NCBI GenBank assembly: GCA_018701175.1 | Contig: JABIWF010000079.1 | Coordinates: 1 to 37,168 of the forward strand | Reading direction: 5' to 3' | Source: Methanobacteriota archaeon | Lineage (GTDB): Archaea > Thermoplasmatota > Poseidoniia > Poseidoniales > Poseidoniaceae | Length of the DNA: 37,168 bases | Shown: positions 2,411 to 17,800 of the stretch, in pieces | How positions within the stretch are numbered: position 1 is the stretch's first letter | Layout of the letters: the number at the start of each line of letters is the position of its first letter | Notes under the pieces: generated by a model | What the model was told of the DNA's origin: nothing | Databases searched by the model: none | Seen by the model: only the letters and a program-made list of their open reading frames with translations | Position numbers and translations under genes: made by a program

Positions 2411-3298
2411 TCAAGCCACATCGCCTGATTTACTCCGTCGCTTTTGAGCTTGTATCAACATGTTCAACCACGTCGGTTTGCGAACATCTCCTTCCTCATT
2501 GACAAAGGATCGAACTGCTAACGACAGCAAGTCAATCAGTACAACGACGATGAAGATAAGAATCAACAGTGCGAAGACTTTGTCGTATTGAAGGAACTTT
2601 AGATACGTGTTGATGTAGTAACCAATTCCGCCTGCACCAACGATTCCTATAACGGTCCCGTGGCGTACATTGTACTCAAACATGAACATGATTTGACTGA
2701 GCAAATGGTTGCTGTTCTCGGGTATGACAATGTTGAATACAATACTTGAGCGACTCAAACCCATGGCTCGACCTGCTTCCAGCGGATCGTTTGGCATACC
2801 TTCAAACACTTCATATTGTAATTTACCAAGGTAACCGACCGTGTAGAACGTCATTGCCAATACGCCTGAAAGTGGGCCAAAGCCGATGACAATCACGAAC
2901 AAAATAGCCCAAATTAAACTAGGAAGGCTTCGAACTGCTGAAAGGAATATTCGAACTGGAAGCGAAATATACAGTGGCATCAAGTTTCGTGCAGCCAATG
3001 AAGAAAGGGAAATTGCTCCAACAAAACCGAGAATGGTCGAAACAAAAGCAATTTTTAGCGTTTCCATCATTCCAAGATAGCCAACTGAACAAAAGAATTC
3101 GATATCTTGTTCACACACTGGGTATGAGCGGGCTTCAAGAACCTTCCAATTTGGTGGCCACATGCTTTCTTCAAAGAAAACAACCAGGTTTGACAGGCCA
3201 CCCTCAAGTCGGCCCCAATCGCCTTCAACTAAACCGTCCAGCGTTTGCCACGCCAAGAAGAAAAGGATGAATACGATACCAAACAAACGGTATTTCAT
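2411..3298 (-). CDS. ABC transporter permease, PhnE-like; predicted to serve the adjacent transferrin-like binding protein
   Basis: Multiple TM segments and an EAA-type cytoplasmic loop 'EAGRAMGLSRSSIVFNIVIPE' with 'GIVGAGGIGYYI'. Overlaps the upstream ATPase gene by 4 nt. Confidence 0.88.
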   Translation of the reverse strand: MKYRLFGIVFILFFLAWQTLDGLVEGDWGRLEGGLSNLVVFFEESMWPPNWKVLEARSYPVCEQDIEFFCSVGYLGMMETLKIAFVSTILGFVGAISLSSLAARNLMPLYISLPVRIFLSAVRSLPSLIWAILFVIVIGFGPLSGVLAMTFYTVGYLGKLQYEVFEGMPNDPLEAGRAMGLSRSSIVFNIVIPENSNHLLSQIMFMFEYNVRHGTVIGIVGAGGIGYYINTYLKFLQYDKVFALLILIFIVVVLIDLLSLAVRSFVNEEGDVRKPTWLNMLIQAQKRRSKSGDVA

Positions 3299-4002
3299 TC
3301 CTCTTCCCCCAAATGTTGCTCCCGCCAGCTTGACTCATCTATATCCAGCCATTCTTCCAATGAGTAATCATGTAGATGATTATCCTTAATCAGCCAAATT
3401 CGAGTGGCGAAATCTTTGGCATTGTCTTCATGATGCTCAACCATGATCACTGCAGTTCCTTCCTCAACCAATTCATGAACTGCACTGAGGACAATGTCAA
3501 CGTTGGTTTGGTCAAGTTCGCCTAGGAATTCGTCCGCCAACATAAGCCGTGGACGTTGCGCCAGTGTGCGAGCTGTAGCAACCCTCCGTTGTTGTCCACC
3601 GGACAAGCGTCGAACTGGTTCCGAGGCCTTTTCCTCGATGCCAAGTGTACGAATAGCCTCGAACGTTCTTTCCTTTCGGTCTTTGAACATAGTTCTCGAC
3701 CAACCCACGCTCAAACGCGCCCCAAGAGACACATTGTGAGCGACGGTTGCATGACGAACAAGACCCAATCGTTGAGGGATGTATCCAAGCCCACCGCTTC
3801 GTTTGACTCGAAGGTCAAAGTCGCCATCAAGTGGGCGAACGAGTCCAGCAATGGTTCGAATCAGCGTCGTCTTTCCGATCCCAGAGGGTCCAAGGATAGC
3901 GATGATTTCTCCTTCATGAACATCAAGAGTAATCGGCTTCACCAGAGGCTGGTCATATCCGATGACCAAGCTGTTCAGAGACAGGATTGCATCTTCACTC
4001 AT
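3295..4002 (-). CDS. ABC transporter ATP-binding protein, PhnC-like
   Basis: Walker A 'GPSGIGKTT', signature 'LSGGQQRRVATARTLAQRP', Walker B 'LMLADEFLGELD'. Confidence 0.92.
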   Translation of the reverse strand: MSEDAILSLNSLVIGYDQPLVKPITLDVHEGEIIAILGPSGIGKTTLIRTIAGLVRPLDGDFDLRVKRSGGLGYIPQRLGLVRHATVAHNVSLGARLSVGWSRTMFKDRKERTFEAIRTLGIEEKASEPVRRLSGGQQRRVATARTLAQRPRLMLADEFLGELDQTNVDIVLSAVHELVEEGTAVIMVEHHEDNAKDFATRIWLIKDNHLHDYSLEEWLDIDESSWREQHLGEEE

Positions 4003-4195: not shown

Positions 4196-6310
4196 TTATT
4201 CTGTAATCTCATACTTTGAATCAAAGTATGTTGAAATGCCTGGTATGGCACTGATGAGACTGCTGTAGCTGCCGAGGTGTTCTTGCGAATTAACTTCAAC
4301 CAAACCACCTGTGTTCAACACATTCGACAGGATTTGATCGCCACAAGCCGATTGCGGCGAAGTCGAGTCTACTTGGTGAGTTACCATCGAGTAGCATCCG
4401 GTGTAGTTCTGTCCCTGCATAGGGTAATCTTCGACGTACATCTCAGTGTTCAATGCCAACATTGCGTTGAGTATTGCGGTTCGAGTCTGAACATCAAGTG
4501 TAGCTGGGTTGTACATCACTGGGTGAGAAGGTGCAGAACCGTAAGAAGGTAGCAAGATGTATTCAGATTCTGGAAGACACCACTCGGCATTCTCGCTTGC
4601 ATCATCCTTACCGCAGTATGAAGCTACAGTGGAATCCTTTGCAAAGGCGACATCGCCGACTCCTTCTGTCAAGCACTTCACTGCGCCGGAGTAGGAGTAG
4701 TAAGGAGTACCTGATTCTGGAATACTTGCATTTTCGTTGAAGAACGAAGTGATGGTGTCACGTAGTGATTCAATATCATCCTGTGGACCAACGACTGGAG
4801 CATATCCTTGGGAGATAAGGTGGCCCATTGGCAGAAGCATGCCAGCAGATTTGAGCCAACCGGTGTGGCACGAGGTCTTTCCTGCCATCATTGCAAACGG
4901 ATCTGTGGAATCATCGTCGTCCAAGTAGGCGTTCGCAATGTCTGAACCGTTGAGAACGACTGCATGTGCGTCGTAGTGCGTGCGGCCGTCAGATTTGAGG
5001 TCTGCAGCCATAGCCGCAAGGCCGTATTCTTTCCAACCAACCCACGCTGCGCCACCGTCCATGAAAGCGATGTCTGCATTACCAAAGCGAAGTGCTTCAA
5101 TGATGGCGCCTTCAGAAGTGACCGGGTATAGCGTTACTGTCACGCCAGTTTGTTCAGCGATGAAATCTGCTAGAACTTGTGGGTTCTCTGCTGGGTTTTC
5201 GTAATCGTCTTTCATTTCAAAAGCGATTCGAATGTTGGAGATTGTTGGGGTCACTGAATCATTGATTTCGAACTTGGTATCGTAGTATGCAGAAATACCA
5301 GGTACGTCTTCAATCAAGTTTCCATAGGATGCAAGGTGTTCTGTGGCAGTGGTAGCTGAAATTGCAGGTGTATTGAGAACATCACTGAGAATTGATTGAC
5401 CCTCGGTTGAATCCTTCATAGCCACGAGTGCGTTTTGTACGAGCGTCATTGTATCTGCATCGCTGGTTGCCGGGTTGTACATCACTGGGTGAGAAGGCGC
5501 ATTTCCGTACGAAGGCAACAAGATGTAATCGGATTCTGGCAAGCACCATGCTTCATTGGTTGTTGCATCCTCATTACCACAGTAAGAAGCGATGGTCGAA
5601 TCCTTTGCAAAGGCAACATCACCGACACCTTCGGAAAGGCACTTGACTGCACCACTGTAGGAGTAGTATGGAGTTCCGGAGTCTGGTATGCTAGCATCTT
5701 CGTTGAAGAAATTCGTGATGGTCGAGCGCAACGATTCCACATCGTTTGCGTCTCCAATGACGTTCGCATACCCGTTGCCAATAAGGAAGCCCATTGGCAG
5801 GAGCATACCGGCTGATTTGAGCCATCCTGTGTGACACGAAGTCTTTCCAGCCATCAAAGAAAATGGATCGGTGGAAGGGTCATCGTCAAGGTGGGCTGCT
5901 GCAATTTCTGAATCCTTCAAAACGACAGCATGAGCGCTGTAGTAAGTTCGTCCATCGGACTTTTGATCTGCTGCAATTGCATCGAGGCCGTATTGTTGCC
6001 AACCAACCCATGCTGCACCGCCATCCATGAAAGCGATGTCTGCATTTCCAAAGCGAAGAGCTTGTAGAGCAGCACCTTCAGAATCAATAGGATACAATGA
6101 AACATCCATATTGAGTTCTTCACTCATGTAATCTGCTAGACGTTGAGGATTTTCGTCGACGTTTGTGTAATCGTCTTTGATGCTGTATGCAATGACAAAG
6201 TCTTCTAAGTTGCTTTCTTCATTTTCGTCATCGCTACCTAAACAGCCTGCAAGTGATGCTGTGGCAATTAGGAATACAAGTATCGCGGATTTCAGTGTTC
6301 GCGTTTTCAT
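4196..6310 (-). CDS. Lipid-anchored, two-lobed transferrin-like (PhnD-related) ABC substrate-binding protein, predicted Fe(III) binding
   Basis: ORF 4196-6355 (719 aa). Likely true start is MKTRTLKS at 6310, followed by a signal peptide with lipobox 'LAGC'. Two near-identical lobes (about aa 52-366 and 371-719), each with 'FMDGGAAW', 'R-T-Y/H-Y-x-AHAVV', 'GKTSCHTGWLKSAGMLLPMG', 'YYSYSGAVKCLxEGVGDVAFAKDST' and 'APSHPVMYN'. These align with transferrin 'LDAG/LDGG', 'YYAVAVV', '[20 protein letters not shown]', '[22 protein letters not shown]' and 'VPSHTVV' (transferrin sequence recalled from memory). Confidence 0.85.
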   Translation of the reverse strand: MKTRTLKSAILVFLIATASLAGCLGSDDENEESNLEDFVIAYSIKDDYTNVDENPQRLADYMSEELNMDVSLYPIDSEGAALQALRFGNADIAFMDGGAAWVGWQQYGLDAIAADQKSDGRTYYSAHAVVLKDSEIAAAHLDDDPSTDPFSLMAGKTSCHTGWLKSAGMLLPMGFLIGNGYANVIGDANDVESLRSTITNFFNEDASIPDSGTPYYSYSGAVKCLSEGVGDVAFAKDSTIASYCGNEDATTNEAWCLPESDYILLPSYGNAPSHPVMYNPATSDADTMTLVQNALVAMKDSTEGQSILSDVLNTPAISATTATEHLASYGNLIEDVPGISAYYDTKFEINDSVTPTISNIRIAFEMKDDYENPAENPQVLADFIAEQTGVTVTLYPVTSEGAIIEALRFGNADIAFMDGGAAWVGWKEYGLAAMAADLKSDGRTHYDAHAVVLNGSDIANAYLDDDDSTDPFAMMAGKTSCHTGWLKSAGMLLPMGHLISQGYAPVVGPQDDIESLRDTITSFFNENASIPESGTPYYSYSGAVKCLTEGVGDVAFAKDSTVASYCGKDDASENAEWCLPESEYILLPSYGSAPSHPVMYNPATLDVQTRTAILNAMLALNTEMYVEDYPMQGQNYTGCYSMVTHQVDSTSPQSACGDQILSNVLNTGGLVEVNSQEHLGSYSSLISAIPGISTYFDSKYEITE

Positions 6311-6325
6311 GTTATGACCTACCGG

Positions 6326-6341
6326 TTTAGGCCGCCCTAAA
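6326..6341 (-). promoter_or_regulatory. Putative DtxR/IdeR-like metal-regulator operator, copy 1
   Basis: Plus strand TTTAGGCCGCCCTAAA (minus TTTAGGGCGGCCTAAA); perfect inverted repeat TTTAGG-N4-CCTAAA located 16-31 nt upstream of the ATG at 6310. Confidence 0.65.
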
Positions 6342-6350
6342 AACCTGATG

Positions 6351-6358
6351 TACATAAA
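6351..6358 (-). promoter_or_regulatory. Candidate TATA-like box (minus strand TTTATGTA) between the two operators
   Basis: AT-rich element about 40 nt upstream of the ATG at 6310, with operator copies on both sides. Confidence 0.35.
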
Positions 6359-6360
6359 GA

Positions 6361-6376
6361 TTTAGGCCACCCTAAA
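6361..6376 (-). promoter_or_regulatory. Putative DtxR/IdeR-like metal-regulator operator, copy 2
   Basis: Plus strand TTTAGGCCACCCTAAA (minus TTTAGGGTGGCCTAAA); one base different from copy 1, spaced 35 bp start-to-start. Confidence 0.65.
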
Positions 6377-14826: not shown

Positions 14827-17800
14827 TCACTGCTGACTTTGCGCATACTGCATAGCATATTGCTGAGCATATGCTGCTGCGGTTTGGGCATCGTATCCTT
14901 GTGCGGTAAATTGCTGGTAATACTGCTCGTAAACTGCTTGATCCATAGCAGGGGCTGCCGCTGGAGCAGCGGCTGCCGGTGCGGCAGCAGCGGCTTGAGT
15001 CGAGTATTGTTGTGCATAAGCACGAGCAGTTTCCTCAGGATAACCTTGAGCAATCAGTTGCTGAACGTATTGTTCAGTCTGGTCGACAACGCCACCAAAG
15101 CCGCTATCGGTCATTGCAAAGTTCTTGACGTCATCTTCCCCGTTTCGACCAAGGAAGAACATGGTTCCAACAATAACCAGTAACAGTATGGCGCCAATCA
15201 TAATTGGGACTCCAAGGCCGCCAAGGGCGCTTTCAGACGAATCTTCTCCGCTGTCCGATTGAGGTTCAGACCAGTTGCCGTCGACGAGTGTCCAAGCACC
15301 GGACCATTCACATTCACCATCGATGAATACAAATTCGCCACCTGCTGCATCCGCTTCCGCAGGTGCTTCTAGACCTTGACACGCTGCCAATTGGAATTCC
15401 TGCCACTTGACAATCACGTGGCGTTCATCTGGTGCTTGTCCTTCGTAGATACGAATAAAGACACGCTGGCTAAGAGATTTGTTGGTGTAGAGTTCCTCAA
15501 GAGATAGAGTAAGGGAGAAGGTGTCTCCGTCACCCAAACCGCCTTCGGTCTTCGCCCATGTTTCGTCGTTCTTCATGTTGAACTTCTCAATAGCGCTTGC
15601 AGAGAAGCTGTCTTCCATGAATGCAATCTCGACATAAACATCGTTCTGAGATTCTGCACCCGAAAGAACTGTACCAGAGACGGTAATTGTTGGTGTAGTC
15701 ACTCGAGAGTTGTTGAGATCAAAGTTGATATCAACATCAGGTTCATCATCGCCGAAGTCGTTTGGAACGACCACGAAATACATTCTGTGCTTCTCAGAGA
15801 ATTTATCGGCGCCGTCGAAGACGACCAGTTCAATTCGGATTTCCGTGTTTGATGCACCGGTTGTGTCGGATGTCAGGTTGCGGAATGTGTAAGCAAACAA
15901 ACCGTCACTGGCGGCTGTTTCAATAAATTCGTGGCCTTCAATATCAAAGTCGTCATCACCGTATGGAGCGTCGAACAGAACCTTCCATTCGTAGCGTTCA
16001 ATGCCGTTTCCGTCGAGCGCATCCTCGTCTGAGGAGTTACCTGCATCGAAATACACGGTAACTTCACCGTTGTTCTCGTTCAATCGGATTTGGTGAACAT
16101 CCCATTCTTTCGATTGAATGGTGTTGGTTCCCAAGAATTCGATTTGCTCAGCATAATCATCTCGCATGTCGATTTCTGCATCTGCAGTTGGACGGAACGC
16201 ATCTGCATAGACATCGTTGGTTTCAACGGTGACTGTAATGACACGAGAGTGACCTTGGGCATCGTGAAGAATGAGGGTAATGTCCCATTGTTCGCCTTGT
16301 GTACATCCAGTAGCAGATGCGAGGTCGGTCTTACAGAACATCATCAACGGGTTGTTGTCCGTGGTGTGTGAAGTTCCGCTTGCCATGGTAGCACCAGTCC
16401 ATGATGTTGGTCCATCGATGATCCAGTCGGTGTTCAACGACTCAGTCGTATCAGATACAAAGGAGAAGGTTAGTTCTGCGTTGCTCTTGATGTAGTAATC
16501 CTTGTATCCGCCTGTGCTCGGGTCGTTATCAGGGATGATGCCGTTGATTTGCAAATCAAGCCCGTCTCCTAGGACACCAAAGCCTGTTGGGTAAGGTGTC
16601 ACTTGGTAACTGAGCATGTTACCGAGGAGAGGCAGTGTTGCACTGTCTGCACGCTCGGAATGGGTAGCAACGTCAATCGTCGAAACAATCAGTCCACCGG
16701 CTTGGTAACTGCAAACACCCAGGATAGTATCCTTTTGTTGTGCTTGAGTACCGTCTTGACGGATGATTCGTTGGAAAGTTCCGTCTTTCTTGGTTTCACT
16801 GTAACCGCCACAACGTTCTGGAACATTGTTTGCACTCTGGGAGTTCGTGTCCAAAACCGCCATTGCGACGGTCGAAGATGCATCGAATCCTTGGAACGCA
16901 GCCAAATCCACATTTTCCATGAGTGGATGGTATGGATCTGCAAAGTTTGTTTCAGCATAGGTGATTGGACTCTCTCCGAGGTTCTTGCTTTGGATGTTCA
17001 GTCCAAACGGAAGGCGCCCAGTTAGTCCTTGGTCAAGGCCGTAGACTTGACTGCCTTGAGGACCAAGGTGAGCCTGCACAGTTCCACCAGCATACATGAA
17101 GCCCTCAAGGGTGTTCTTGTTCGCTGTTGAACCCAACTTTTGATAGTAACCTCGGCCACCGTTTTCGATGTCCTTTGCAGCAATATCGGTTTGCCAAGGA
17201 AGCACAATCTTGTCGTAGTGCGTAAACCAACCGCTTAGGAAGTAAGTATCCCAGTCGTTGATGTCAAATTGTGTGTAGGTCATTCCAAGGATGTTTAAGT
17301 CTTCCTTAATCGCTGATGTGCGAGGGGAAGTATCCGAAAGAATAGCCACATCAACCGAGTCAGCAAAGGTTGCGTGGAAATAGCGAACGTTTCCGGACGG
17401 GTTTCCGTTTGCGAGTTCCGCATCAAAACTAATGTTGTACTTGTGTCCATCTTGCCATCCGTTCCACGGAGTGAAAGACACATCGATCAGTTGGTGCGAA
17501 TCGAGAGATTGTGCAGGACCTGCTGTTGTCGTGTGAGCTTGTGAACCATCGGTCATATCGAAGATGTTCATGTTGAACACATAGTCGCCTGCCAGAACAC
17601 CGTTGGTTGCCTTGATGGTCCAGTCGTGAGTAAGTGCGCTGTCGATTGGCATGACACATTCGAGTGTTTGGTCGTTTAGACAGTTCAGAGTGTTTGGCTT
17701 GCCCAGCGTAATGTCCACTGATTCAACGTTGAAGATTACAGTCTCGCGGTTATTCGAAACAGACACTTCGTTGTCATTGAACCATGCCTTACCTGCCGTT

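Follow-up and report, generated by a model that had tools for sequence, protein, structure and literature searches.

A pair of near-identical palindromes in front of a transferrin-like gene very probably forms the switch of the iron-starvation response in these Marine Group II (MGII) archaea. From comparisons of sequence across relatives, we consider it highly likely that the palindromes are the operators of the genome's single DtxR/IdeR-type repressor, whose iron-loaded dimers would block the promoter of an importer. MGII are among the commonest archaea of the surface ocean, and iron is limiting in much of the ocean; to our knowledge the group is uncultured, so that its iron response must be read from sequence. 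The literature searched contained no paper on transferrin or DtxR in MGII. The window, by which we mean the whole stretch of 37,168 nucleotides that was analysed, belongs to a draft MAG of Candidatus Poseidoniales (MGII; 1.9 Mb in 149 contigs, about 86% complete).

An earlier note on this DNA had described two inverted repeats of the form TTTAGG-N4-CCTAAA, differing at one base, upstream of the ATG at 6310 and with a TATA-like stretch between them, and the coordinates were confirmed (Table 1). Their starts lie 35 bp apart with 19 bp in between, and their near edges are 16 and 51 bp from the ATG. Read along the minus strand, which is that of the gene, the elements follow one another as operator 1, TATA box, operator 2, GGTAGGT and the ATG. 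The palindromes were also said to have no other copy in the window; there is indeed none with up to one mismatch, and the sole match with two mismatches, at 17294, falls inside an open reading frame. A genome-wide search of the 1.9 Mb assembly found no exact copy besides these two. Under a first-order Markov model, 0.0007 exact copies are expected per window and about 0.03 per 1.9 Mb genome, and at such an expectation for the window the pair is not a product of chance. The reversed pattern AAATCC-N4-GGATTT proved a poor null because the word is itself common (127 occurrences at two mismatches), and random positions, a de novo ranking and the Markov expectation were used in its place. Almost all other genomic sites with up to two mismatches are inside open reading frames, with no convincing match to a regulon family. 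No second target was found in this assembly, whose missing sequence (about 14%) may conceal further ones, and Fea1, a low-iron-inducible protein, was looked for in the same genome and not detected.

Table 1. Elements of the palindrome-bearing promoter and the genes behind it (window coordinates)
Feature	Position	Strand	Basis and remarks
Operator 1, upstream half-site, TTTAGGGTGGCCTAAA (plus-strand letters TTTAGGCCACCCTAAA)	6361..6376	-	Sequence; ortholog conservation; ends 2 nt before TATA, over the expected BRE
TATA box, TTTATGTA	6351..6358	-	Sequence; TATA-like stretch aligned in orthologs
Operator 2, downstream half-site, TTTAGGGCGGCCTAAA (plus-strand letters TTTAGGCCGCCCTAAA)	6326..6341	-	Sequence; the better conserved of both operators among close orthologs
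Shine-Dalgarno-like GGTAGGT	6317..6323	-	6 nt before ATG; sequence reading
Two-lobed transferrin-like lipoprotein, 704 aa	4196..6310	-	Pfam Transferrin 148.6 bits (gathering score 20.3 bits), Phosphonate-bd 144.6 bits
ABC transporter ATPase, PhnC-like	3295..4002	-	Downstream, same strand; PhnC-like by NCBIfam model; synteny 54/59 loci
ABC transporter permease	2411..3298	-	NCBIfam PhnE model above cut-off; synteny 55/59 loci

The classical DtxR/IdeR box is a 19-bp sequence, TTAGGTTAGSCTAACCTAA, bound by two dimers (PMC10317159). IdeR of Saccharopolyspora erythraea was found to bind, as a single dimer and with an apparent KD of 78 nM, a half-site with two CCTAA repeats, and Marcos-Torres et al. 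2021 proposed the 14-bp TTAGGNNNNCCTAA as a consensus and predicted new targets (PMC8464063). Both window sites are exact TTAGGNNNNCCTAA half-sites with the TTAGG-N4-CCTAA core, and each has two CCTAA repeats where TTAGGTTAGSCTAACCTAA has four. The view that these are DtxR/IdeR-type palindromes, put forward before, is supported and can be refined: they match the 14-bp IdeR half-site exactly and do not amount to the full 19-bp DtxR box. We therefore read the pair as two predicted single-dimer sites, in the manner of S. erythraea, where one dimer occupies each half-site. They share the 14-bp core with the operator at the S. erythraea nuo promoter and with the half-site designed in that system, and differ from these in being paired, in their stepwise spacing, in flanking an archaeal TATA and in an extra T/A on each side. 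With the classical box they have CCTAA repeats, iron-gene targets and a core-promoter position in common; in contrast to it, the overlapping second repeat pair is absent at both window sites, and two dimers per box would not be expected. These promoters show the IdeR half-site in nature and conserved in evolution; the 2021 study left the function of the half-site open (PMC8464063).

Conservation upstream of orthologs was assessed in two sets of loci. The records with orthologs that carry a name belong to Candidatus Poseidoniales, Poseidoniaceae and Thalassarchaeaceae, all Marine Group II, and the nearest ortholog shares 97% of the protein. In the first set, 30 loci picked by protein similarity and not by motif, at least one upstream copy with up to two mismatches is present in 28, mostly as pairs; one of the other two (L052) has no upstream copy, and the other (L076) has a weak match only, inside the gene. 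The second set comprised 71 transferrin-like loci with a complete upstream region on named genome contigs. The motif (up to one mismatch) stands directly upstream in 57 of them, 48 with an exact copy; in 13 of the remaining 14 the motif comes first, followed by a same-strand Fea1 gene immediately upstream of the transferrin-like one, and in the last the upstream region is masked by N. A first score that had counted such transferrin-like promoters as motif-less was overturned, as these genes lie behind Fea1, and in the 13 loci the sites likely head a Fea1-transferrin operon. In several genomes (L298-L308) another conserved element, ACTCACATT..AATTT, is repeated in the intergenic stretch that separates Fea1 from the transferrin-like gene, no more than about 200 bp before the latter.

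When all hexamer palindromes with spacers of 0-12 were ranked de novo over 62 non-redundant promoters, TTTAGG with spacer 4 came first, in 41 of the 62, and the next unrelated (non-shifted) palindrome occurred in three. The alignment of close orthologs shows the two sites and the TATA as conserved islands, and the islands persist in species that have another upstream stretch (tRNA-like by reading) in place of the usual neighbour, though with a degenerate operator 1. Conservation upstream of orthologs, one of the properties by which the earlier note was to be judged, therefore holds also at loci with a different neighbour gene upstream. The single-contig relative G056 (CM001443.1) has two exact copies in all, both at the transferrin-like promoter. 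That the palindromes are a coincidence, or serve as an RNA or structural element that no regulator reads, has a practically negligible probability, given the 0.0007 exact copies expected in the window and the persistence of the sites into other families with diverged flanks; conservation refutes it.

The 704-aa product of the regulated gene has lactoferrins as its best PDB relatives (E about 6e-30) and contains the transferrin signature SCHTG and the YSGA...CL...GDVAF stretch, with D96, Y124, Y218 and H274 as candidate Fe ligands in lobe 1, by motif and alignment. In both lobes the Arg of the carbonate site is replaced by Lys (SCHTGWLKSAG), and for this reason we class the protein, on its sequence features, as transferrin-like only. 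The gene order transferrin-like, ABC ATPase, permease is kept in 54-55 of 59 loci. Matches of the 704-aa protein to PF12974 (Phosphonate-bd) and of the permease to TIGR01097 (PhnE) lend themselves to a reading in which the sites respond to phosphate or phosphonate, as a PhnD/PhnE/PhnC-type importer annotation would suggest. We regard this as very improbable, because the substrate-binding protein matches Transferrin at least equally well and keeps candidate Fe ligands, and because the genes co-regulated in relatives are iron genes, with no phosphate-uptake family among the recurrent ones. Automatic annotation would label 2411-4002, a probably iron-regulated importer, as a phosphonate transporter, and the operator provides evidence, independent of protein homology, for iron import by this cluster. 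In some genomes (L300:4639, L306:4648, L308:4648 and similar) an extra motif copy follows the transferrin-like gene and precedes the ABC ATPase, and may there supply the transporter with an operator of its own.

Across the order, the motif is present in 126 of 146 genomes. Seventy-seven regions around motif copies were fetched from about 20 genomes, with mechanical gene calls. Of the 106 copies, 89 fall between -20 and 110 bp relative to a gene start; for positions drawn at random from these regions the share is 9.3%. Rather than being scattered at random, the motif thus lies in promoters, and across relatives it keeps returning at iron genes. The fetched set was selected by motif and consists mostly of copy-rich genomes, so that the following counts show the composition of the regulon and not its frequency: Fea1 (18 promoters in 16 genomes), transferrin-like genes (15 in 14), an M28 peptidase-ZIP fusion (9 in 9), the glutamyl-tRNA reductase HemA (7 in 7), SufC, over its equivalog cut-off and divergent from a small Nfu-like protein (6 in 6), flavodoxin (4 in 4) and the ribonucleotide reductase small chain NrdB (2 in 2). 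The small Nfu-like protein opposite SufC has no family match. Genes for Fea1, transferrin-like, ZIP, HemA, SufC, Nfu-like, flavodoxin or NrdB proteins adjoin 59 of 90 copy clusters; the other clusters include a rhodopsin, NADH dehydrogenase chain 3 and several unknowns, and about a third of the motif-bearing promoters in relatives precede genes without an obvious iron tie. When Fea1 loci were selected by Pfam family alone, the motif was found at 28 of 30. A phylum-wide search outside the class gave mostly 0-2 copies per genome, and eight copies checked in two such genomes had no obvious iron gene. The operator in this way predicts a list of co-regulated genes to be sought in metatranscriptomes of iron-addition experiments.

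Fea1 responds to low iron in algae. The two protein families of the algal low-iron systems (phytotransferrin ISIP2a and Fea1) recur here, in contrast as archaeal lipoproteins, the transferrin-like one beside an ABC importer and with a predicted DtxR-type repressor site. For phytotransferrin (ISIP2a) of marine algae, a response to low iron is described (PMC7972479). Two single copies lie before genes of other function. In genome G087 one is 63 bp upstream of a rhodopsin gene (L098:2559-2574), a single case that may hint at iron-linked phototrophy or may be due to chance. Another is 85 bp upstream of an NADH dehydrogenase chain 3 gene (L128:2491-2506); in S. erythraea, too, a half-site at the nuo operon is bound by IdeR (PMC8464063).

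The absence of any DtxR/MntR-family regulator would have spoken against an iron-dependent repressor; a DtxR-family protein is encoded here and, across the order, in 139 of 146 genomes, spanning 22 of 22 genera. In the genome that holds the window, a single protein of 223 aa, encoded in single copy at L003:1474-2145, has the Fe_dep_repress domain (PF01325), together with the metal-binding/dimerisation domain PF02742, over cut-off. Fur was not found in this genome and is present in 11 of 60. Archaeal DtxR-family metal regulons have reportedly been described by Leyn and Rodionov in 2015 (work cited in PMC10317159), and a DtxR regulator, a palindromic site and metal-uptake targets are what they have in common with the present case. 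Autoregulation in the own genome was considered and dropped, since no motif copy with up to two mismatches lies near the DtxR gene in L003, nor in nearly all relatives read; some DtxR-bearing relatives are without exact motif copies.

It is possible that the sites form operators of an iron regulon read by another, uncharacterised regulator, and the missing link between DtxR gene and site in the own genome would fit this. We nevertheless hold it to be quite unlikely: the sequence equals the IdeR half-site, Fur is mostly absent, and no regulator other than DtxR was found next to such paired sites. In family f3 of the same class, probably MGIII, a DtxR-family gene with an FeoA domain and the gene of the iron permease FTR1 diverge from a region with two operators 35 bp apart (L342:1894-2700). 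Three copies occupy the same place in L341 (L341:1910-2700), on a contig too short for the partner gene to be read, and in L343 one copy precedes FTR1. This DtxR-FTR1 arrangement is the strongest link between DtxR and the site. The recognition-helix stretch TEMIQRL is, moreover, identical in the own, f2 (L175) and f3 DtxR proteins. Within f2, the three genomes G096, G110 and G120 of genus g17 are devoid of exact motif copies; in G120 the DtxR (L169) has an altered recognition helix, SASEMLKRL, a possible case of covariation between regulator and site.

A second alternative concerns the metal. In IdeR terms, the ligands H79, E83, H98, C102, E105 and H106 are conserved in the own DtxR by alignment, and M10 is replaced by Glu; in MntR, too, the residue at the M10 position is acidic. 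The protein scores 81 bits against MntR models of NCBIfam versus 46 bits against DtxR, all below cut-off, and a ZIP-family transporter is among the targets. These features would accord with a manganese-sensing (or zinc-sensing) repressor of the DtxR family that draws transferrin-like and Fea1 proteins into a broader metal response. Such a sensor appears unlikely to us, as iron functions dominate the targets (transferrin-like, Fea1, FTR1, SufC, HemA, flavodoxin, NrdB) and the C102 position holds Cys as in IdeR, whereas in the MntR-like paralog of one f2 genome (L161) this position is Glu and the palindrome upstream of the gene is another, TTTAGC-N4-GCTAAA. Were each DtxR type to read a site of its own, such a difference would be expected. 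The copy in question, TTTAGCCAAGGCTAAA at L161:1705-1720, is 31 bp upstream of the paralog gene and is a possible operator of a second, manganese-type regulator. The proposal that an iron-dependent repressor controls the transferrin-like gene is thus supported by conservation, by recurrence at iron genes and by the presence of DtxR, and iron is favoured over manganese because of the target genes and the ligand residues, the Cys at the C102 position among them.

Start-to-start spacings of 98 unique pairs fall at 21-22 bp (2 pairs), 32-35 (57), 43-46 (34), 53-56 (4) and 59 (1), clustering near 22, 34, 44 and 54 bp in steps of about one helical turn; these pairs are related by descent and form a pattern, not an independent-sample test. 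In 48 paired promoters covering both main spacing classes, the TATA-like stretch starts 1-3 nt after operator 1, which indicates that operator 1 is fixed beside TATA and that operator 2 shifts by a turn. Archaeal transcription starts about 25 nt after TATA, and the expected start would fall inside operator 2. We infer DtxR binding, iron as the metal, repression and the exact start site, and propose the following course of events. When iron is sufficient, Fe(II)-loaded DtxR dimers would bind, one per palindrome, the dimer on operator 1 beside TATA and covering BRE, that on operator 2 over the start site, and the two would deny TBP, TFB and RNA polymerase access to the promoter of the transferrin-like importer, which would consist of the substrate-binding protein, the ABC ATPase and the permease. 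As iron drops, DtxR would be released and the importer made.

More tentatively, and with somewhat less than an even chance of being right as a whole, this may amount to an order-wide iron-starvation regulon of Poseidoniales, built on paired single-dimer DtxR half-sites at helical-turn steps (about 22, 34, 44 and 54 bp), in which a pair of dimers, held in constant phase on the helix, would clamp both BRE/TATA and the start site, with the transferrin-like ABC importer as core target; in some genomes, the present one included, the importer may be the sole strong target. For neighbouring IdeR dimers, cross-linking by a swap of SH3 domains was suggested as a possibility in the half-site study (PMC8464063).

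At hemA the motif sits within the first codons (LGxP) of the gene, for example at L138:1480-1495 and in L311-L335. Among 30 hemA loci collected by protein similarity, 28 of them evaluable, the motif (up to one mismatch) is present in 23, in almost every case at one and the same position; the five genes that lack it are the more divergent members of the set. Leu is TTA and Pro is CCT in 23 of 23 motif-bearing genes, the residue that separates Gly from Pro is unconstrained, and a Leu a few codons further on varies between TTA, TTG and CTT. This codon use leads us to reject coding coincidence as an explanation of the hemA copies; the constraint at the start of hemA acts on DNA, and the copy would be an intragenic operator just past the start codon.
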